This document shows, piece by piece, positions 2,448-39,115 of a DNA stretch of 41,121 bases. A program made the position numbers and the translations under genes. The stretch is from a virus, in the IMG/VR virus record IMGVR_UViG_3300036770_008701, positions 1 to 41,121 of that record; one strand, given 5' to 3'. The notes beneath the pieces were generated by a model. That model did not search any database and was not told the DNA's origin. It was given only the letters and a program-made list of their open reading frames with translations. The first letter of the stretch is position 1; every line of letters begins with the position of its first letter.

Positions 2448-4388
2448 TCACAGCTTGATATCGACATGCAACAGACAGGCGGTACCATTGCTGTTCGACA
2501 CCACCAACTGCCCGCTGTCCGCGTCGGCACCGTCCTGGATTACGAAGCTGACCCCGCTACCTGCAGGCACCGCCGAATGCACAACCGCCTGTTCCTTGGT
2601 GGCCGCCGCCCCCGTGGTACCCGTGAAGGATGCGATGAACCGCGCACCGCGCAGGGTATCGACGCGGGCATCCATGATCATGCTGATGGGCTTGTCCGGG
2701 CTGTTGCGCACCGTGACCGTATGCGACCCGCCCGCCGGCACGGTGGCAAGGTACGGCATGCTGTATCCGGCCGGGTGGCCAATAGCCAGACAGGATAGGG
2801 CCGATGCCTGCTTGACGCCTTCTTTCACCTGTTCGGTGATGGGGTGCCAGGATGCATATCCAAGTGACAGTTTGCCCGAGGTGCCGTAAGGCGCGATGGC
2901 CAGCCCGTCCAGGGTGCGGGCATCAGGGCCGGCTTGGTCGCATCGGATCATGATGACGACGCGGCATTGCTTGGACTGGCTATGGTAGGTCGCCGGATAC
3001 CAGTACTTCGTTGTTCCGCTGATCTTGATTTCACCGGGGTTCGCCGGCAGCGACACGTTGCGTTCCATCGTTGTGACGTAGGACAGGACAAGCGCCTGCT
3101 TTTCCGCAATACAGTCCGGGGTGCGGCGGATGTTCTGGCCGCTGAAGACGGTGCCGCCCTCGCACTCAATATATGGCCAGGCCCCCGACGGACGGGCAGG
3201 CACCGCCGGCTGATCAAAGAGACGGTGGCCACCCAACGGCTGCACCACCGACGTGCGTGCCGTTCCCGCCCCGCCGGTGGCGTCCACGGGTTCCGTGTAC
3301 CACCGGGTTTCATCGTCCACCGTACCCTGTTGAATATCAATCGTGGCAGGGGTCAGAACATGCACGCCGCGCCCGTCCACGGTTACCTTATTGTCGCTGT
3401 AGTTCGAAATGCGAACGCGCGTATCGAACCGGGGCGGAGCCTCACCGGCACCGGGTACGCGGGTGTGACCGGTCCAGATGATGGAGATGTCGCGGGTCTG
3501 CGCACCGGGATCGAACTGCACCCAGCTGTCAATATGGAGCAAGCCTTCAGGGGTTGTTGCGATATTGGTGCCACAACTCTCTGTCTCGCAGTTGTGGAAG
3601 GTGGCTTCGAATTCCTCGGTATAGGCACCAAATCGCAAGACGCCACGCGGTGCCGCTTCCCAATGGCAGTTGTCGAATTTCGGGAAGCCGCCGCAATTCA
3701 CCCAGTATGTGCCCCCGCCGTTGTGAAGACGGCAGTTGAACCACTGCATGAGGTTTGTAAAGACGCCTTCACCATACATGCTGTTTTCACAACGGTCCGT
3801 GTGGATGTCGGTGAACAGCATTCGACCTAAGAAACCATGCGGATCGATATTCTTGGTCGCCGGTCGCCGCACCAGCGCTGTGGCGTTGGTCCAGCCTGCA
3901 AAGGAAAGGCCTCTAAAGCTCCACATGTTTGGATAGCTGAACGTACGGGCTTCATCGATATCGACGTAAATGCCCGTCGGGATTGCCCCCAACGCACCCT
4001 TATTGTGGATAGCCAGCCCCTCGACCCTTAACTGATCGTGCTTGTTGCTGCCCAGCGGAATGCGGATGCCATCTGTTCCGTCGAAGATAAGGCGCACCCC
4101 GGCGCGGGACTGGTCAAAGCGCTCGCAGACACCGCTGCCGCGCCCAATCATTTGGAACTGCTTCCAATCATTAGGCAGGCTGACAGAGCGGGAACTGAAA
4201 TATCCCACGAACTCCGACACCTCATCAGGCTCCGGCGCGGAGAAGATCAACTGCCGCTTCAAGCGGACGGCGTCTCGGATCAGATCATCCAGAGCATCCG
4301 CATTGTCGGTGACACCGTCCCCGGTCAATTCCTCCGCTGCATGGATTTCCAGCGCGTCGAACTGACGCGTGCGACCGGGGCGTTTCAT
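2448..4388 (-). CDS. Tailspike with pectate-lyase-like beta helix
   Basis: 646 residues. The N-terminal part has the usual opening of Pectate_lyase_3 folds (GDGVTDNADALDDLI, about residues 23-37), followed by repetitive short strands rich in Asn, Gly and aromatic residues typical of a right-handed parallel beta helix. Such phage proteins bind and often cleave capsular or O-antigen polysaccharide. No catalytic residues can be assigned from sequence. The ATG overlaps the stop of the tail fibre gene as ATGA (4385-4388), so both adhesins are made from the same message. The N-terminus lacks an obvious T7-gp17 anchor, so it may attach to the larger fibre rather than directly to the tail. Confidence 0.8.
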   Translation of the reverse strand: MKRPGRTRQFDALEIHAAEELTGDGVTDNADALDDLIRDAVRLKRQLIFSAPEPDEVSEFVGYFSSRSVSLPNDWKQFQMIGRGSGVCERFDQSRAGVRLIFDGTDGIRIPLGSNKHDQLRVEGLAIHNKGALGAIPTGIYVDIDEARTFSYPNMWSFRGLSFAGWTNATALVRRPATKNIDPHGFLGRMLFTDIHTDRCENSMYGEGVFTNLMQWFNCRLHNGGGTYWVNCGGFPKFDNCHWEAAPRGVLRFGAYTEEFEATFHNCETESCGTNIATTPEGLLHIDSWVQFDPGAQTRDISIIWTGHTRVPGAGEAPPRFDTRVRISNYSDNKVTVDGRGVHVLTPATIDIQQGTVDDETRWYTEPVDATGGAGTARTSVVQPLGGHRLFDQPAVPARPSGAWPYIECEGGTVFSGQNIRRTPDCIAEKQALVLSYVTTMERNVSLPANPGEIKISGTTKYWYPATYHSQSKQCRVVIMIRCDQAGPDARTLDGLAIAPYGTSGKLSLGYASWHPITEQVKEGVKQASALSCLAIGHPAGYSMPYLATVPAGGSHTVTVRNSPDKPISMIMDARVDTLRGARFIASFTGTTGAAATKEQAVVHSAVPAGSGVSFVIQDGADADSGQLVVSNSNGTACLLHVDIKL

Positions 4389-25413: not shown

Positions 25414-26904
25414 TCAGAAGTCGGAAAGGGGGTTGTAGTCGGACGCGCGCGATGGACGGCGGCGATGGTCGGGCCGCTCCCGCCGTTCCTCCTGGTCGCG
25501 CTTGCGGTTGATGGTTTCGTACCCGCCATCGCCCAATTCGACGTATTGCAGGGCGTCGTGCGGGTTGGAAAACTCGTTCTTGTTCACTTCCGGCTCATAG
25601 CTGTTGCCATCGCCGCCGCGCTTTTTCTTGAAATGGAAGCCGCTGTTGAAACCGCGCCGCAGCTTGGGGCAATGCACCGGGTCGATCAGCAGGTTGCGTT
25701 GATGCGGATTGTCATCGCAGACGGTCAATAGCGCCTGGCGCACCGCTTCCTGACGCACGCCGGGGGCATTGCTGGGCGCGGGCTTGATGGTCAGACCGCA
25801 TTCCCGCGCGACCATGGCCGCCCAATGCTGCGCCTCCCCACCTTCTTCCGATGTGGCCGATCTGGCCAGGCCAGCGGGATCAACCCAGGACACGCCGATG
25901 GGGATGCCCCGATATCGTTCCGACGCCAGAAGCCGGTTCAGCTTCTCCGCAAAGGTCTTGTACCCGACATTGTGTTCTACCAGCTCGCCCAACGCCCACC
26001 GCTGGCCGGATGGCTGCTTCTGAGTGATGACGGCGGACGGGAAAAGGCCCTGGTCTAGGCCGATGGACAAGGGAAGGTTTCGACGCGGGATCAGTATCGT
26101 CGGCGAAACGTGGATCTGGTCATTGTACTCATGTTCGTAGACAGGCCGCCCCGCCCGAGAAAAGCCGGGCAGATTGTCGATGAAGCGCCGCACCCACCAT
26201 GATTGACGCCCACGCGGCTCATAATATCCGACGGGCAGGTTGGGCAGGTTCTCTGCATTGTGGGCGCGCCCGCCGGGCTGGATATGGACGCTGTAGCCTT
26301 GCTTGCGCGTGGCCTGGTCATAGATGTCGGTGTAGGACCAATGGTCCACATCCGGGGCGTTCATGTCGAACCACAGGCCATACCAGCTGCATCCGCCATG
26401 CGTGCTGTCGGGATAGCGGCCGCAGCGGCCCGACAGATGTTCGATCAGCTCGGGCGCGCACAGGTCGGCTTCGTTGACGTAGGCCGCCGTCGGTTCGAAG
26501 CCTCGGCAGAAGTCTTCAACGTCATTTTCACCGATTGCGGCAAAGATCACCTCCATGTCGATGATCCCGACCCCCGGCACCTGCATTTTCAAATGGTGGG
26601 TAGTCTGGCCGTTCTGGCCACCGGAATGATAAATCCCCATGCTGGGCGGGATGCGCTTGTGCCAGGACAACAGCGTGCTGCGCGCCATCTGGCGGTAGGT
26701 GTTGCGGATCACGACGAAGCGGGTGTAGCGCACGCCATCAACCGGGCTGGGCCGCTGTTCGCACGCCACATAGAACATTTTCATCAGCGCCGTGGTCGTC
26801 TTAGCGCTGCCGTTGGGACCGATGATGCCACTGATGAAATTGCGGTCGGTCAGGAACCGCCCACTTACCGGCCCCGGTGCCTCGTATCGAATGTCAAAGC
26901 CCAT
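25414..26904 (-). CDS. Terminase large subunit
   Basis: 496 residues. The ATPase domain has a deviant Walker A (GPNGSAKTTT, residues 29-38) and an AYVNEAD Walker B (acidic Glu145). The C-terminal nuclease shows the three acidic residues of the RNase H-like fold: Asp284 in GLDQG, Asp342 in VDPAG and Asp450 in NPHDALQYVEL. It would cut concatemers and drive DNA into the procapsid through the portal. The start is backed by GGAAGGGG upstream of the ATG. A cos or pac mode cannot be told from the sequence. Confidence 0.92.
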   Translation of the reverse strand: MGFDIRYEAPGPVSGRFLTDRNFISGIIGPNGSAKTTTALMKMFYVACEQRPSPVDGVRYTRFVVIRNTYRQMARSTLLSWHKRIPPSMGIYHSGGQNGQTTHHLKMQVPGVGIIDMEVIFAAIGENDVEDFCRGFEPTAAYVNEADLCAPELIEHLSGRCGRYPDSTHGGCSWYGLWFDMNAPDVDHWSYTDIYDQATRKQGYSVHIQPGGRAHNAENLPNLPVGYYEPRGRQSWWVRRFIDNLPGFSRAGRPVYEHEYNDQIHVSPTILIPRRNLPLSIGLDQGLFPSAVITQKQPSGQRWALGELVEHNVGYKTFAEKLNRLLASERYRGIPIGVSWVDPAGLARSATSEEGGEAQHWAAMVARECGLTIKPAPSNAPGVRQEAVRQALLTVCDDNPHQRNLLIDPVHCPKLRRGFNSGFHFKKKRGGDGNSYEPEVNKNEFSNPHDALQYVELGDGGYETINRKRDQEERRERPDHRRRPSRASDYNPLSDF

Positions 26905-26987: not shown

Positions 26988-27779
26988 TCAAACCGTGTCG
27001 TCTCGCTGATCCGTAAGGGGGGAGACGGGCGGAAAATCGGTTGGGGGGAGGCCCCCGGCGTCGCGTGCCACCCCCCCATCGCGCGGCATGGAAGCGGCAT
27101 TGCCAGCGCCTGCCGCGCCGCCCGCCAGAGTGGAAGTCTGTTCGCCCATGACCACAAGCCCTTGATCCTGCTGGCCTTTCCCGCCGCCTGCCAAAGCGCT
27201 CATACCAACGCATTGCGCGGACAGCGCGGTAAGCCCTTGAATTTGCTGGATTTCGTTGGCAAACAGGTCCACCACCCCGCCCTCGTTCGCCGCCGCTGTC
27301 GGTGCCGCCATGCCCACCGGCATGTGCAGGTGAAGCGTGGGCAGGTTCAGCGCATCGGCCTTGATGGCCAGCGGCTGCTTGGCGTGGATGTAGGGCGCCA
27401 CGATCTCCGCCGCCCTCAGCTGTAGCTTCAAAGCATCCTCCGCCTTGCAGCGCAGCCGCATGGCCAGCTCTTCCACCGGCATCGAATAGACATCCGCCAG
27501 CACCAGCAGCGGTGAGCGATGCTGCGACAGGAAGAAGGTGCGCCAAGCCTCTGTCGATTGGTTGCGCGCACCCTTTGGCCGCCCCCCGCCCCGACGCGGC
27601 TTCATGAACAGGTCGGCCCCAAGCGTGCCGATATCGTCCAGCGGCCCCGCACCCACGCCCTGCATATCCGCCCAAAGGTCCGCCTGCTCGCCGCCCTGGT
27701 CAGGCACGGACAGCGGTCCCATGCCGGCCTCTGCCATGGCCGCCGCCATGCCCGTCACACGATCCTCACCACCTGACAC
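26988..27779 (-). CDS. Terminase small subunit-like protein
   Basis: 263 residues from GTG 27779, which has a GGGGGG ribosome site eight bases upstream. A basic GRPKGARNQSTEAW segment (about 66-79) leads into a helical region (LVLADVYSMPVEELAMRL, then KLQLRAAEIVAPYIHAKQP). This is the common layout of small terminases or their DNA-binding accessory proteins in podoviruses. The remainder is Ala/Gly/Pro-rich and disordered. It lies immediately upstream of the large subunit and downstream of the TGGTAC array, a possible packaging or initiation site. Confidence 0.75.
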   Translation of the reverse strand: MSGGEDRVTGMAAAMAEAGMGPLSVPDQGGEQADLWADMQGVGAGPLDDIGTLGADLFMKPRRGGGRPKGARNQSTEAWRTFFLSQHRSPLLVLADVYSMPVEELAMRLRCKAEDALKLQLRAAEIVAPYIHAKQPLAIKADALNLPTLHLHMPVGMAAPTAAANEGGVVDLFANEIQQIQGLTALSAQCVGMSALAGGGKGQQDQGLVVMGEQTSTLAGGAAGAGNAASMPRDGGVARDAGGLPPTDFPPVSPLTDQRDDTV

Positions 27780-27809: not shown

Positions 27810-28033
27810 TGGTACAGGCGGTGGTACGCGGCGTGGTACGGGCTATCCCTTTGGAAACTAAGGTATATCTACCTATCCGTACCACTGTACCACCTGTACC
27901 ACCACCACGGCACACACGCGCACTCGCCCATGCACATACACATCAATCAAACCGGTGGTACGGGTGGTACGGTGGTACAGCGTTGAAATCGTTGCTGATT
28001 TCCGTACCACCACCGTACCACTTTGCCGTACCA
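27810..28033. repeat. Mirror-symmetric TGGTAC iteron array
   Basis: Twelve copies of TGGTAC (most GGTGGTAC[G/A]) in the 326-base gap between terminase small subunit and helicase genes. Forward copies start at 27810, 27822, 27834; reverse copies at 27879, 27887, 27896; forward at 27956, 27965, 27973; reverse at 28004, 28015, 28028. The outer triplets are spaced 11-13 bases and the inner ones 8-9, so the whole array is close to a two-fold palindrome centred near 27925. The AT-richest stretch (GGTATATCTACC) lies in the left arm. Candidates are a replication origin, packaging site, ParB-binding centromere, or late promoter control region. Confidence 0.85.
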
Positions 28034-28105: not shown

Positions 28106-30220
28106 TTATGAAGGGTCAGGGTCGGGGATACCGTCGGGCCAGGGGCCGGGGTCTGGGTCGGGTGGCCACCCCTGATCCACCTGGAGACGGGCTTGATAAG
28201 CGGCCCCACCATCCGCCCCCGGCGTCTGTCCCTGCCCTGGTGGCGGGGTTCGGGCGGATGGTGGATGCTGTGCGTGTGGATGGCTGTCGCCATCCGGCAG
28301 ACAGATGGAAAGGGGCACGAGCAAGGCGCGGCTGGGATAGCCACCGATGCGGATTTTCTTGGGCTTGCCGTCCCTGCCTGCCTCTGGCGTCACCGCCCCG
28401 GCAAGCCGGCGCAGGGTCTGCACCCACACGCCCGTCGTGTCCGCCGCACTGTGCCAGTGCGTGCCCTGCATCAACCGGTTCAACCCCGTCGATTGGTTGG
28501 CCACGGCCAGATACTTGACCAGATATTGCGACTGGACCCGCATGCCCACGCTGCCCAGCACGGCTTCCGCCTTGGCCGCCCGCGCGCCCACATCATCCTT
28601 TTCGGTGTTGGTCATGTTGTCGGCTGTTGCCTCTGCGGCCGCCATGCGCACCCATTCCGCAACGGTCAATCGTCTGCGGTCGTTCGGGTCTTCCACCACG
28701 CATGTCATCAGATGGGTGAGACAGCTGAATTCGTCCGCATCCGGCTGCGCCTCGGCAATGCCGGATGCCGGTAGCCTTTCGGCCCACGGCTCAATATCGC
28801 CCTCTACACTGGGCACATCGTCATGTATGGCGATATGGGCACAGGCCAGGACCGTGCCGAACACGTCCTGGCCGCGCGCACTGTGCCCGCCCCTGGCCAT
28901 CGCGTCGCGATACGCCTCCACGGCGGCGGGGAACAGGTGCCATTGGTCGATCACGCGCCGCAACAGCCGGGCACCCAGCTCGGCCATCTTGACCTCTGTG
29001 ATGGCCGGCGCCTTGCCATCCTTGGACAGCGGCCCTAACCGGAAAATGAGCATGCGGCTCAAATCCTGCGGCTTCATGGGCGGCATCAGGATGGAGCTGA
29101 AACCGATGACGGAATACAGGTTGAAGGTGGTCCCCTCATGATCCTGCCCGCCGCGAACGGCCATGGCCCCGGTATGGGCGGATCGCGCCAGCTCCAACAG
29201 GGCCGCCAGCTTCCGGTTATCCTCCCGCGCTTCCGCCTCGTCCAGCCAGACGGGAAAGCTGCTGTACCGCACCGTCTGCCGCACACCCGCCGCCGTGGCG
29301 TCCGCTGTCTGCAACGCACCGCCGGGGCCGTGCAACCATCGCTGCGCATCCTGCAATGTGCTCTTGCCCGTGCCATACCCGCCGGTGGTCCAATGCACGG
29401 GCCGCCGGTCCAGCGCCCCGCCGATCATGGCCGCCACGGACAGGCCAAGCATCAAATGGGCGTCGGTTTCACCGCGCTCCAGCGCCCACCGCTGGTACAG
29501 CTTTTTCAGCTGTGCCGCCGGCCCATCCGGCCCGCCTGGCTGTTGCTTCTCGGCGGGGCGAAGCCCCTTGCGGCCCGATGGATAGACATAGCCGTCAACC
29601 AGGCCGGGGGCCATCTCACGGCGCTGCCCGTCCTTGTCCACGCACAACAGCACATCGCCAAGATGCAGGATCAACCCGCCATCCGGCCCTTTCCACGCAC
29701 CGGGGCCGCGCACCCGCTCCTGCGGGCTCCACACGCCGGCCTTTGCTGCCTGGGCCATCAATGCCTCGGCGACCATCTCGGGCTTCCACCCGGTGATAAT
29801 CCAATGCTCTTCCGTGTCGCCGCCGGGCAGGGTTTCGCGCACCTTTTTCAGGCTGGCCCAATGCTTGCGCAGATATCCCGCCGCGATCTCCCCGAACAGG
29901 GCCTGGATGTTCAGCCGGCTATGATCCTTGGCTTTCAGGCTGCGCAACTGACCAAGCGCGTCCAGATACCAATAGACATCGCCATAGATGCCAAGCGCGA
30001 TGACGGGACACCCGGCGGGCAAATGGCCGTCATAGTGGGTGCCGCCATCATCCCCACCATCCTCATCTTCCGGCGGTGGCGGCTCCTGCGGCGGCGGTGG
30101 CGCTCCTGCCGCCGGCTGGCACAGCGCCTCCGTCAACGCGCGTTCCCGCGCCTCTGCCTCGGCATCCGCCAGCATCTGCCGCACCTGGGACATGTTGCCT
30201 TCATCGGGCGGCGGGCTCAT
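28106..30220 (-). CDS. Helicase-like AAA ATPase (replication)
   Basis: 704 residues. The central ATPase has a clear Walker A (GGYGTGKST, about residue 281) followed by SSFPVWLDEAEA, a Walker B-type Asp-Glu. The N-terminus is Pro/Asp/Glu-rich and the C-terminus Pro/Asp/Gly-rich, both likely disordered. The arrangement with a Toprim primase immediately upstream (ATGA overlap) matches phage primase-helicase pairs of the DUF927 or D5-like type. It probably unwinds phage DNA at the origin. The TGGTAC array begins just downstream of its stop. Confidence 0.8.
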   Translation of the reverse strand: MSPPPDEGNMSQVRQMLADAEAEARERALTEALCQPAAGAPPPPQEPPPPEDEDGGDDGGTHYDGHLPAGCPVIALGIYGDVYWYLDALGQLRSLKAKDHSRLNIQALFGEIAAGYLRKHWASLKKVRETLPGGDTEEHWIITGWKPEMVAEALMAQAAKAGVWSPQERVRGPGAWKGPDGGLILHLGDVLLCVDKDGQRREMAPGLVDGYVYPSGRKGLRPAEKQQPGGPDGPAAQLKKLYQRWALERGETDAHLMLGLSVAAMIGGALDRRPVHWTTGGYGTGKSTLQDAQRWLHGPGGALQTADATAAGVRQTVRYSSFPVWLDEAEAREDNRKLAALLELARSAHTGAMAVRGGQDHEGTTFNLYSVIGFSSILMPPMKPQDLSRMLIFRLGPLSKDGKAPAITEVKMAELGARLLRRVIDQWHLFPAAVEAYRDAMARGGHSARGQDVFGTVLACAHIAIHDDVPSVEGDIEPWAERLPASGIAEAQPDADEFSCLTHLMTCVVEDPNDRRRLTVAEWVRMAAAEATADNMTNTEKDDVGARAAKAEAVLGSVGMRVQSQYLVKYLAVANQSTGLNRLMQGTHWHSAADTTGVWVQTLRRLAGAVTPEAGRDGKPKKIRIGGYPSRALLVPLSICLPDGDSHPHAQHPPSARTPPPGQGQTPGADGGAAYQARLQVDQGWPPDPDPGPWPDGIPDPDPS

Positions 30221-31380
30221 GCGGCAATCCCCTGGCCACGCGGGCGGCGTTCCGCACCCCTTGCGGCTTTCAACACGTCATTCACGTCTTTCACCCCCGC
30301 CGGCGGGCGCGGGATCAAAACCCGCTTGCCCTGCGCCTCATAGGCCGGCACCACTTTGCGCATCAGCGTCTCGTTGGCCGGGCTGTCGGGCGCGTCATTG
30401 TCCCGCCACAGAACCACGGTCTGGATCGCCTCTGGCCAGGTCAGGGCCGCCATATTGTCGATGCTGATCCCGGCGACACACCGCGCCTCCGGGATCTCCA
30501 CCGCCACCGACAGGGCGTTTTCAATCCCCTCGGCGATATGCACTTCCGATGGAAACCGCATCTCGCGCCATTTCGGCAATCGGTTGATCTGTCCCGTCTG
30601 CCCATCGATGCGCACGCCCTGCCACAGGCGGATAACCGCGTTGCGCCCGCTGAACAGGCCAAGGCTTTTCTTGTTCTCTTTCAGGTCGGCCTTCACCCAC
30701 TGCCCGTTTCGGCAATCCAGCCAGGTGCGATGGATGCCCAGAAAACTGCCGTCACCTCCGACAATGGCCGCGACCATGGCGGGCAGGGTGTAGAGCGGCT
30801 TGCCCTGTTCGTCGGTGCCAAGCTCGGCACAGCCCAGCTCGGGGTGGAACCGCACGCCCCGGAACCATCGTTCCGCAAAGTGCAGGCGCTCAATATCGAT
30901 GCCGCGCCCCAACAGATACGCATCCACCGGCGTATCGATGATCTTTTCCTGGGCACGCAGATATGTCGCCTGGGCCGCGCGCCGCTTGCGCTCATTCCTG
31001 GCCGCCTCTGCCTCGTCGCGCTGGTCCCTCGCCTCTTTGGCCGCCAGCGTCTTTTTAAATGCGTCCGGGTTCGTCCCGTCCAGGCCAAGCCAGGCCTTGG
31101 CCCAACGCACGGCCTCCCGCATATCGCCACCGAACCAAAGCTGGGCCGTGAATTCCAGCGCTGACCAGTTCTTGCCGGCGCTGAAATCCTTGATCAGGCC
31201 CTGGCACTTACCTTTGATGGCAATGCGGAAACTGCCTTCATGCCGGTCATCCCGGAATGGCGACAGGCAGACGAAATCATTGTGCCGCACATGGCCCGAC
31301 AATCCCCAGGCCTGGGGAAGCTCCGCCATGCGGTCGCGCAACATGTCCGCGATCTGCTGGGTGGTGACCTCCCGGCTCAT
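30217..31380 (-). CDS. Toprim-domain DNA primase
   Basis: 387 residues from ATG 31380, which overlaps the upstream stop as ATGA. The N-terminal segment (CLSPFRDDRHEGSFRI, then GLIKDFSAG) resembles the CHC2-derived primase fold without its zinc cysteines. The C-terminal Toprim domain shows HIAEGIENALS (catalytic Glu284) and LWRDNDA (D-x-D, 327-329). It would make RNA primers for phage replication alongside the helicase. The last residues couple to the helicase gene by ATGA. Confidence 0.85.
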   Translation of the reverse strand: MSREVTTQQIADMLRDRMAELPQAWGLSGHVRHNDFVCLSPFRDDRHEGSFRIAIKGKCQGLIKDFSAGKNWSALEFTAQLWFGGDMREAVRWAKAWLGLDGTNPDAFKKTLAAKEARDQRDEAEAARNERKRRAAQATYLRAQEKIIDTPVDAYLLGRGIDIERLHFAERWFRGVRFHPELGCAELGTDEQGKPLYTLPAMVAAIVGGDGSFLGIHRTWLDCRNGQWVKADLKENKKSLGLFSGRNAVIRLWQGVRIDGQTGQINRLPKWREMRFPSEVHIAEGIENALSVAVEIPEARCVAGISIDNMAALTWPEAIQTVVLWRDNDAPDSPANETLMRKVVPAYEAQGKRVLIPRPPAGVKDVNDVLKAARGAERRPRGQGIAA

Positions 31381-31778
31381 CGCTGCCACCATTGGCCGCG
31401 CGCGTCCTCGGGTACTTCCTCCGCCGGCACCATCGGCGCTGGCGCGGCCTTGGCCGGCGAAACCCTGGCCGCAACTTTGCCACCCCGGCGAATGTCATTC
31501 GCCTTGACGCGCCTGCCATGGGCTACCCTTTCGACAATGGTTGACAGGCGCTCACGCGCTGCCTGCGCTTCCGGGTTCAGGCGGTGGCCATCGCACAGGC
31601 CCCGCACCGCCTCGATGGCGTCCAGGACCGGCCCCATATCCGCAGGCATGGCCTGGCCCGCCGCCACCGCGTCGCGCAACCGCTTCCACCCTTGGGGGCT
31701 GGGTGCAAGGCACCAATTACTGGCCGCCACCATCACCTCGATATCGGGCGGAAAGTCTGTCTCTTCATAGCGTGGCAT
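31377..31778 (-). CDS. Hypothetical protein, early leftward operon
   Basis: 133 residues from ATG 31778 (MPRYEETDFPPDIEV), overlapping the upstream gene by 14 bases and the primase gene by 4. Helical, Ala/Arg-rich, with a basic C-terminal part and no recognised motif. A copy of the 15-bp palindrome (31488-31502) encodes Ala-Asn-Asp-Ile-Arg in its linker. Position suggests a replication accessory role, but nothing in the sequence shows one. Confidence 0.6.
   Translation of the reverse strand: MPRYEETDFPPDIEVMVAASNWCLAPSPQGWKRLRDAVAAGQAMPADMGPVLDAIEAVRGLCDGHRLNPEAQAARERLSTIVERVAHGRRVKANDIRRGGKVAARVSPAKAAPAPMVPAEEVPEDARGQWWQR
31488..31502. repeat. 15-bp palindrome, copy 6
   Basis: GCGAATGTCATTCGC, extended by one G/C pair each side, in the hypothetical gene before the primase. 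Encodes Ala-Asn-Asp-Ile-Arg. Confidence 0.8.
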
Positions 31779-37342: not shown

Positions 37343-39115
37343 ATGTCCACCAATTCCGCCCCGGCTGCCGGCGATACGCGCGGCAGCTATCTAAAGTCCT
37401 TGCGTATCACCGCCGGGCGCTCCACCCGCGACGTGGAAACCGCCGCCAAGGTCGGACAGGGGACGGTCACCCATGTTGAGGCGGGCAAGCGCACCAATAT
37501 CGGCGATGCCGTCTATTCCGCCATCGCCACCGCCCTGGGCACCGACCCCGCTACAGTCCTGGCCCTGCCGGTCCAGGCGGTGGTGGCCGAACCCACGCGC
37601 GCCATCCTGCCCATGGGTGCCGCACTGCCCCGCCGGGCTATACGCCCCTCGCCGTTGAACCCGCGCAAGCGCTTCGACCCGGCGCAATTGGCGGAGCTGG
37701 GGGAAAGCATCCGCACCGCCGGCATTATCGAACCCATCCTGGTGCGGCCCATTGAGGGAGAAGACGGCGCCTATTGGATTGTGGCCGGTGAACGCCGCTG
37801 GCGGGCGCTGGAAACGTTCCTGACAGGCGAAGAACTCGACGGCTATATGGTGCCCGTCGTCATCCGTGAGGGCATGACGGACGAAGATCACCTGAAACTG
37901 GCCATCATCGAAAACCTGCAACGGGTGGACGTGGCCCCGCTTGAAGAAGCGGCGGCCTTTGATCAGTTGGAACTCATGGGCCTGTCGAAAAAGGCCATCG
38001 CCACCGCCATCGGTAAAGTGCCTGAATATGTGCAGCAGCGTATCAGACTGCTGAAACGCCTGTGTCCAGAGGCTCAAACCGCACTTGCGGACAGGAAGAT
38101 CAATTTCACCCAGGCGCTGCATCTCAGCTCAATCGAGTTTGAGCCACAGCGCGATTTGCTGAAAAAGCTGGACCGCTACCCCACGGCGGAGCGGATGCGC
38201 GATGCCATCTATGGGGACATGGTGCCCGTTACCCGCGCCATCTTTGATCTGGCGGATTACAAAGGCGCCATCACCGAAAATCCGGTCACGGGCCTGCGCT
38301 ACTTCGCCGATAAGAAGGACTTCCTGGCTGCCCAGTATGATGCGGTCAAGGCCGCCGAAGCTGCCTATCTTGACGCCGGATGGTCATGGGTGGAGCTAAA
38401 GAACTGGGTGCTAACCGAAAGCCTGTACGAGGATGATCGCACCACCGATACATCGGTCGGCGGTGTCTACATTTATCACTCGTCCTATGACGGCACGGTG
38501 AAGATCCACGAAGGGCTGGTGAAGCGCGATTTCTCCGAACGCGCGGCTCTACAGAAGGCAGACACTGAACGGCGCGAAAGGAACGATGCTGAGTGGAACG
38601 CGTTCCGCGCCAAGTTGCGTCAACGGCTGGCGAACGATCCCGGCATGGTGGCACGGCTGGCCATCTTGAGCCTGATGACGGATCGCGGTTGGGATAATCC
38701 GCTATTTGACAGCAATCGTGGTCTGTCGATGCATTGGTTAAAGCCGAACATCCTGAAAGCTGATAACCGTCCGCTATTGCCGACCTTTACCGAACGCTGT
38801 CTGGGCACCATTGAGCAAGAGCGGCCCAGCAATATCGGCTGCACGATGGATGTGGGTTCGGTCTGGGCGCCTCATGCTTTGCTGGCGCTGCAAGAAGACG
38901 AAAGCAATGGCGCGCCATCATCGTTCGATGTCTGGGCATACGAAATGGCCCGCCGTTTCAAGGTTGACCGATATGATCAGGCTGATCCGATTGTCACCTT
39001 CCTGGCCCGCCGCTACGGCATCGCCATCCCGGCCCATCTGCAACCGGCACAGACGGATATCGAAGACGCGGCGAACGCTGTTCGTGATGCTGAGTTAGCA
39101 GAGGCGGCGGAGTGA
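37343..39115 (+). CDS. XRE-ParB fusion protein
   Basis: 590 residues. An XRE-type helix-turn-helix (about 14-72) is fused to a ParB/Srx domain (about 95-195) with the classic GERRWRA (149-155) and ENLQR (190-194) motifs, then a KorB-like helix-turn-helix (about 197-240) and a long unassigned C-terminus. No ParA is encoded nearby. ParB of this type loads on parS and slides as a CTP clamp; in phages such proteins can act as transcription factors or in plasmid-like maintenance. The XRE domain may give separate DNA specificity. AAAGGAC precedes the ATG. Confidence 0.8.
   Translation: MSTNSAPAAGDTRGSYLKSLRITAGRSTRDVETAAKVGQGTVTHVEAGKRTNIGDAVYSAIATALGTDPATVLALPVQAVVAEPTRAILPMGAALPRRAIRPSPLNPRKRFDPAQLAELGESIRTAGIIEPILVRPIEGEDGAYWIVAGERRWRALETFLTGEELDGYMVPVVIREGMTDEDHLKLAIIENLQRVDVAPLEEAAAFDQLELMGLSKKAIATAIGKVPEYVQQRIRLLKRLCPEAQTALADRKINFTQALHLSSIEFEPQRDLLKKLDRYPTAERMRDAIYGDMVPVTRAIFDLADYKGAITENPVTGLRYFADKKDFLAAQYDAVKAAEAAYLDAGWSWVELKNWVLTESLYEDDRTTDTSVGGVYIYHSSYDGTVKIHEGLVKRDFSERAALQKADTERRERNDAEWNAFRAKLRQRLANDPGMVARLAILSLMTDRGWDNPLFDSNRGLSMHWLKPNILKADNRPLLPTFTERCLGTIEQERPSNIGCTMDVGSVWAPHALLALQEDESNGAPSSFDVWAYEMARRFKVDRYDQADPIVTFLARRYGIAIPAHLQPAQTDIEDAANAVRDAELAEAAE

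Follow-up and report, generated by a model that had tools for sequence, protein, structure and literature searches.

An intergenic array of 12 short repeats, at positions 27810-28033 of a 41,121-bp virus contig (the whole record, referred to here as the window), is, on sequence evidence, very probably the replication origin of a temperate phage. It is best read as an origin of the kind known from PICIs, SaPIs and phage P4, i.e., a rep gene followed by an iteron origin, in a new form that is doubled and mirror-symmetric. A phage origin had been named as a candidate for this site in an earlier note, and that candidate is now backed by the gene order, a layout that is kept among relatives, AT-rich spacers, covariation of the repeats with a neighbouring helicase, and the presence of relatives of that helicase among solved structures.

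The array and its neighbourhood

By exact-match count there are 12 copies of TGGTAC in the array, in the order +++---+++---, and all 12 of the repeats that had previously been described as forward-reverse-forward-reverse triplets were recovered. The copies on the plus strand start at 27810, 27822 and 27834 and at 27956, 27965 and 27973; those on the minus strand start at 27879, 27887 and 27896 and at 28004, 28015 and 28028. The extended form of the iteron is GGTGGTACRG. From the side of the small terminase gene (terS), the array comprises an outer triplet (27810-27839, plus strand, steps 12,12); an AT-rich spacer (27840-27878; 56% AT, compared with 37% for the window); an inner triplet (27879-27901, minus strand, steps 8,9); a central spacer between the two putative half-origins (27902-27955; 41% AT); a further inner triplet (27956-27978, plus strand, steps 9,8); a further AT-rich spacer (27979-28003; 56% AT); and the outer triplet on the helicase side (28004-28033, minus strand, steps 11,13). 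Both AT-rich spacers are candidate melting segments. In full, the start-to-start steps are 12,12 / 45 / 8,9 / 60 / 9,8 / 31 / 11,13. Thus, the wide outer spacing (11-13), the narrow inner spacing (8-9) and the near two-fold symmetry reported before all hold, but the gaps between outer and inner triplets are unequal (45 and 31). The symmetry is near rather than perfect, since the centres of mirror-paired sites are spread over 27921-27928.5.

The opinion that such an arrangement is too ordered for chance is borne out by shuffled sequences and Markov genomes. TGGTAC occurs 22 times in the whole window, compared with 7.0 ± 3.0 times after shuffling (none of 100 shuffles reached 22), and a 224-bp segment of the window contains at most 12 copies of one hexamer, a maximum that is 4-7 in 40 Markov genomes and that falls to 6 in the window when the array is removed. 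No second array of this kind is present in the 41,121-bp record. Nor is the array a CRISPR, as had been recognised: its repeats have a hexamer core and occur in both orientations, whereas CRISPR direct repeats are about 21-40 bp long and are separated by regular, unique spacers.

The record encodes an integrase, a portal-type head-tail adaptor and tail-tube genes, which identify the virus as a temperate podovirus-type phage, together with a large terminase, a major head protein and tail proteins. The core genes around the array all read on the minus strand: first the Toprim primase, then the helicase, the array, the terS-like gene and terL. With both neighbours on that strand, the array follows the 3′ end of the helicase gene, 72 bp from its stop codon, and precedes the 5′ end of terS, 30 bp from the start codon. 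The primase (30217-31392, minus strand) is DnaG-like and has a Toprim domain (DUF7146 and Toprim_3); the large terminase gene is at 25414-26904 (minus strand). The small terminase-like gene (26988-27779, minus strand) owes its label to its position before terL, its sole profile match being weak and to a profile of unknown function; a tblastn search of the phage collection found no relative of its product (TerS).

The proposed initiator is the helicase (28106-30220, minus strand), an SF3/D5-type protein of 704 amino acids with the Walker A motif GGYGTGKST and a C-terminal region at approximately residues 530-640. It is not covered by a dedicated Pfam family; among its relatives, 12 of 67 match the P4-family primase C-terminal profile (TIGR01613). 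In structure comparison, its AlphaFold model (mean pLDDT 87) matches the SF3/D5 helicases ASFV PrimPol, NrS-1 and poxvirus D5/E5, the SaPI5 primase-helicase (7ola; E 5e-7) and PriRep1 with double-stranded DNA (7pds). As TM-scores of the whole model against solved structures are low (0.2-0.5), these matches support the fold class (SF3/D5) only.

Layout and repeat words among related phages

A profile search of viral contigs with the helicase, which reported 560 relatives, gave 80 loci, i.e., the window and 79 relatives that are 33-94% identical; a scan of genome contigs with a single-protein query gave no match. In the clustered set the order primase-helicase-terS-terL is kept, these genes being found in 67, 80, 70 and 69 loci, respectively. 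A search of relatives for the same array between terS and the helicase gene, which had been suggested as a check, found a repeated-hexamer array in this interval in 70 of the 80 loci: there, it outcounts every other segment of the locus, and the terS-like gene is kept beside it. In the other 10 loci there is no clear array, some appearing degenerate or having no readable interval. One contig whose helicase is 94% identical has retained 11 of the 12 sites at the corresponding position.

In the 42 arrays with resolved inner groups, the inner steps are 8 (91 steps) or 9 (29) and the outer steps are mostly 11 (46) or 12 (25), while AT content is 56.6% in the spacers between outer and inner groups, 39% in the centre and 34.4% in the loci. 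The commonest number of sites per half is 6+6 (22 arrays), followed by 5+6 (10 arrays), and the 6+6 count holds across 3+3, 4+2 and mixed splits. The repeated word itself differs from phage to phage (GTACCA, GTTAGG, GTTCCA, GTTACC, GTTCTG, GTCACA and others). Two loci with GTTAGG (L140, L142) have steps of exactly or nearly 11,12/42/8,8/60/8,8/42/12,11; GTTCT(G/C) occurs in 4+2/2+4 form in L176, L187 and L212; and there are loci with GTCACA (L201), GTCAGA (L158), GTCTTG (L207) and GTTCCA (L180, L192, L198). Inner steps of 8-9 and outer steps of 11-12 are common to arrays with unrelated words, and these phasings are compatible with the suggestion, made previously, that they mark two binding modes.

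A named phage with such an array is Bdellovibrio phage phi1422 (L133, JQ177062), whose helicase is 24% identical to that of the window. It has 12 GTTACC sites at 3394-3698, 3′ of the primase gene, and their spacing is exactly mirror-symmetric (9,10,14,64,8,89,8,64,14,10,9). In the passages found, the comparative paper on phi1422 makes no mention of the array. This phage would be a good experimental model, and the layout could serve as a marker for locating the origin in unannotated phages of the family. The rule that an array follows the helicase gene fails in some distant branches, as Bordetella PBb001, Serratia MQ-4, Pseudomonas ZRG1 and Acinetobacter Acjo_20 have no array within 500 bp 3′ of that gene.

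Variable cargo genes are found on either side of the array in L143, L154, L164, L176, L188 and L205, which makes the helicase-terS interval an insertion hot spot.

The arrays share a third element, close to TAAGYCATTGAWA, which is 31-35 bp outside the inner groups, beside the outer group, in 37 of 57 halves scored; its information content is barely above that of a random-locus control, so that the evidence for it is positional clustering. In the window the copy is weak (27844, in the AT-rich spacer on the terS side). Elements resembling TAAGYCATTGAWA also occur in arrays of unrelated helicase families (L128, 3821; L059, 1708; L077, 896; L092, 7362). Two-orientation TGGTAC arrays with a TAACCCATTGATT element are found beside genes of unknown function in L059 (1467-1692) and L077 (651-880), with no helicase gene recognised within the stretch fetched for either.

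Reader of the repeats and alternative functions

As the array is always between the helicase gene and terS, synteny alone cannot tell which of their products reads it, and correlations between whole-protein similarity and iteron similarity were weak and undecisive until discordant pairs and the position of the array were used. When L161 is compared with L176, L187, L189, L196 and others, TerS is 56-61% identical and TerL is shared, but the C-terminus of the helicase and the word differ. L164 and L165, on the other hand, have the same word as L153 and L156 (GTTACC) with TerS only 28-31% identical, their helicases being about 64% identical in the N-terminal and 50-53% in the C-terminal region. 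Taking such pairs together, those that kept TerS (at least 50% identity) and changed the helicase C-terminus share 1.32 of the 3 variable bases, against a background of 1.38, and those that kept the helicase C-terminus and changed TerS share 2.35 of 3; the canonical words were oriented by hand and the pairs are throughout only partly independent. There are 18 loci in which inserted genes have put the array 0.4-3 kb from the helicase gene while it is still beside terS. In these loci the helicase C-terminus alone predicts the word (standardised beta 0.31, matched by 20 of 500 permutations; beta 0.02 for TerS and 0.05 for TerL), the statistical support being modest, since few of the events are independent among such related phages. 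In a sliding scan across four proteins, the segment best correlated with the word was helicase residues 593-640. The comparison of loci indicates that the repeat word follows the C-terminal region of the helicase, and not TerS.

These results bear directly on the proposal, made in the earlier note, that the array may be a packaging site. At such an initiation site (cos or pac), TerS would bind the repeats and direct terminase cleavage beside its own gene. The array does abut terS, in most relatives as well as here, as a cos or pac site should, and the extra genes in the 18 loci part it from the helicase gene, not from terS. However, the word does not covary with TerS, as that of a cos or pac site should; genes have been inserted between the array and terS in L176, L187, L188 and L205; packaging is directional, whereas a mirror-symmetric array would have no polarity; and the same type of repeat is found 3′ of VapE in L026 and L093, where the next gene is not terS. 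On account of the word and of these insertions, a packaging site is disfavoured, and we regard it as improbable. The array could also be an operator for a regulator that switches transcription from the early (replication) to the late genes (terS onwards), for it is between these two sets of genes, which are co-directional. The 6+6 geometry, the AT-rich spacers and the covariation with the helicase are not what is expected of an operator, so that this is quite unlikely as the main function; the same protein might act there in autoregulation as a side role.

Partition was the other function that had been put forward, in the form of a non-canonical centromere bound by the HTH-ParB fusion protein of the window (HTH_31, ParB_N and HTH_ParB; 37343-39115, plus strand). 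The window indeed encodes this ParB_N/HTH_ParB protein, but among 31 array-bearing records only 3, one of them the window, have a ParB_N domain that scores above the curated cut-off, and the array, about 9 kb away from parB, goes with the helicase gene. A centromere is hence highly unlikely, and the fusion protein is probably the product of an accessory partition or regulatory gene. Repeats that arose by chance or as part of coding sequence deserve mention because TGGTAC in the collection often belongs to tandem repeats within coding sequence; the array, by contrast, is intergenic, has both orientations, and belongs to a set of about 70 phages in which the geometry is conserved while the sequence changes, and this explanation was rejected as having a negligible chance of being correct.

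Proposed mechanism of initiation and comparable origins

The replication origin remains the preferred reading, and the closest parallels to it come from PICIs and SaPIs. SaPI Rep helicases recognise, via the C-terminal domain and apparently as two hexamers, iterons directly downstream of rep (PMC7581432), and PICI origins, which lie 3′ of rep, have an AT-rich region with an iteron set on either side (Fillol-Salom 2018, PMC6092414). The array resembles these origins (pri-rep-ori; SaPI Rep, SCCmec Cch2) in having short iterons immediately 3′ of the gene for a putative self-loading, initiator-type helicase (relatives may have inserted genes there), in having an AT-rich segment flanked by iteron sets in each half, and in the predicted fold of the helicase, which matches that of SaPI5 Rep; covariation points to its C-terminal region as a candidate reader. 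It differs in consisting of two such units head to head, with 12 sites and two AT-rich spacers, and in its fixed steps of 8-9 and 11-12; moreover, the helicase belongs to a distinct family that Pfam does not recognise, and the window is a complete phage with virion genes rather than a satellite.

Other systems are less similar. In satellite phage P4, the fused primase-helicase alpha protein binds short iterons in two orientations at two separate sites (ori and crr). Relatives of the window helicase score against the P4-family primase C-terminal profile, but in the window the iterons form a single compact, symmetric site and the Toprim primase has a gene of its own. The lambda origin has iterons for the O protein inside gene O, beside an AT-rich region, and O recruits DnaB. 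Iterons by an AT-rich region with a phage initiator as the proposed reader are common to both, whereas the array in the window is intergenic and its proposed initiator is itself a helicase. In SV40 and papillomaviruses, the SF3-class helicases T antigen and E1 form double hexamers on symmetric sites; these origins have few sites, bound through an N-terminal domain, whereas the array has 12 and the evidence for its helicase points to the C-terminal region. The present layout was not described in the literature searched on TGGTAC origins, on VapE together with iterons, and on P4 crr.

From these parallels a mechanism can be proposed, in which binding, melting, hexamer stoichiometry and bidirectional forks are what we infer. 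The SF3/D5-type helicase would load itself as the initiator, with the GGTGGTACRG iterons recognised by its C-terminal region. There would be two inverted half-origins of six iterons, each with an outer and an inner group around an AT-rich segment. One hexamer could assemble on each half and melt its AT-rich spacer; the two facing hexamers would then unwind in opposite directions, giving two outward forks, both of which would be primed by the Toprim primase. There is no reversal of GC skew across the array, which speaks against an origin, although skew in this region is governed mainly by gene direction and was uninformative. That the 6+6 layout reflects two hexamers is somewhat favoured, and the layout predicts a stoichiometry of six sites per hexamer. 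A wider proposal, for which we see the prospects as evenly balanced, is that this is a widespread phage family with one fixed geometric code for initiation: 12 sites would be divided into mirror-image halves, each with one site for each of six helicase subunits, and the DNA would template two opposed hexamers, while the C-terminal region would keep switching the word between lineages, producing mutually incompatible origins on a constant scaffold; TAAGYCATTGAWA, beside the outer groups, may be the start of melting or priming. Word switching is a likely basis of origin incompatibility between phages of this family. The system bears on how SF3/D5-class replicative helicases load as opposed hexamers on double-stranded DNA, and about 70 natural origins, alike in geometry but not in word and each accompanied by the sequence of its helicase, would provide a ready-made specificity code.

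Similar arrays are found beside other helicase genes. A scan for TGGTAC triplets returned mostly coding tandem repeats and a minority of true origin-like arrays; as relatives also use other words, TGGTAC was rejected as a universal word. Intergenic TGGTAC arrays occur directly 3′ of genes for VapE (L026, L093, L095), a Pox_D5-type protein (L028) and an AAA_25 protein (L060), and in L083 directly 3′ of a DUF5906 gene that is followed by terS and terL. As arrays recur 3′ of other helicase families, that of the window ranks among origin iterons and not among packaging sites. In L006 (10601-10720), a TGGTAC array is inside an O-like replication initiator gene, as in lambda. A half-size array (3 sites, an AT-rich stretch, then 2-3 sites) occurs 0-120 bp past the VapE stop codon in L214-L284. 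The VapE set consists of 71 close relatives, mostly 84-99% identical and many on contigs of about 14-15 kb, with words that switch between GTACCA, GGACCA, GTTCCA, GTGCCA and a type with GTGAC. In agreement with the window's family, the class of repeat in these relatives goes with helicase residues 446-464, in the C-terminal part, where position 456 is F, R or Q. The covarying codons physically adjoin the repeats, so that some of the covariation in this set could be due to linkage.
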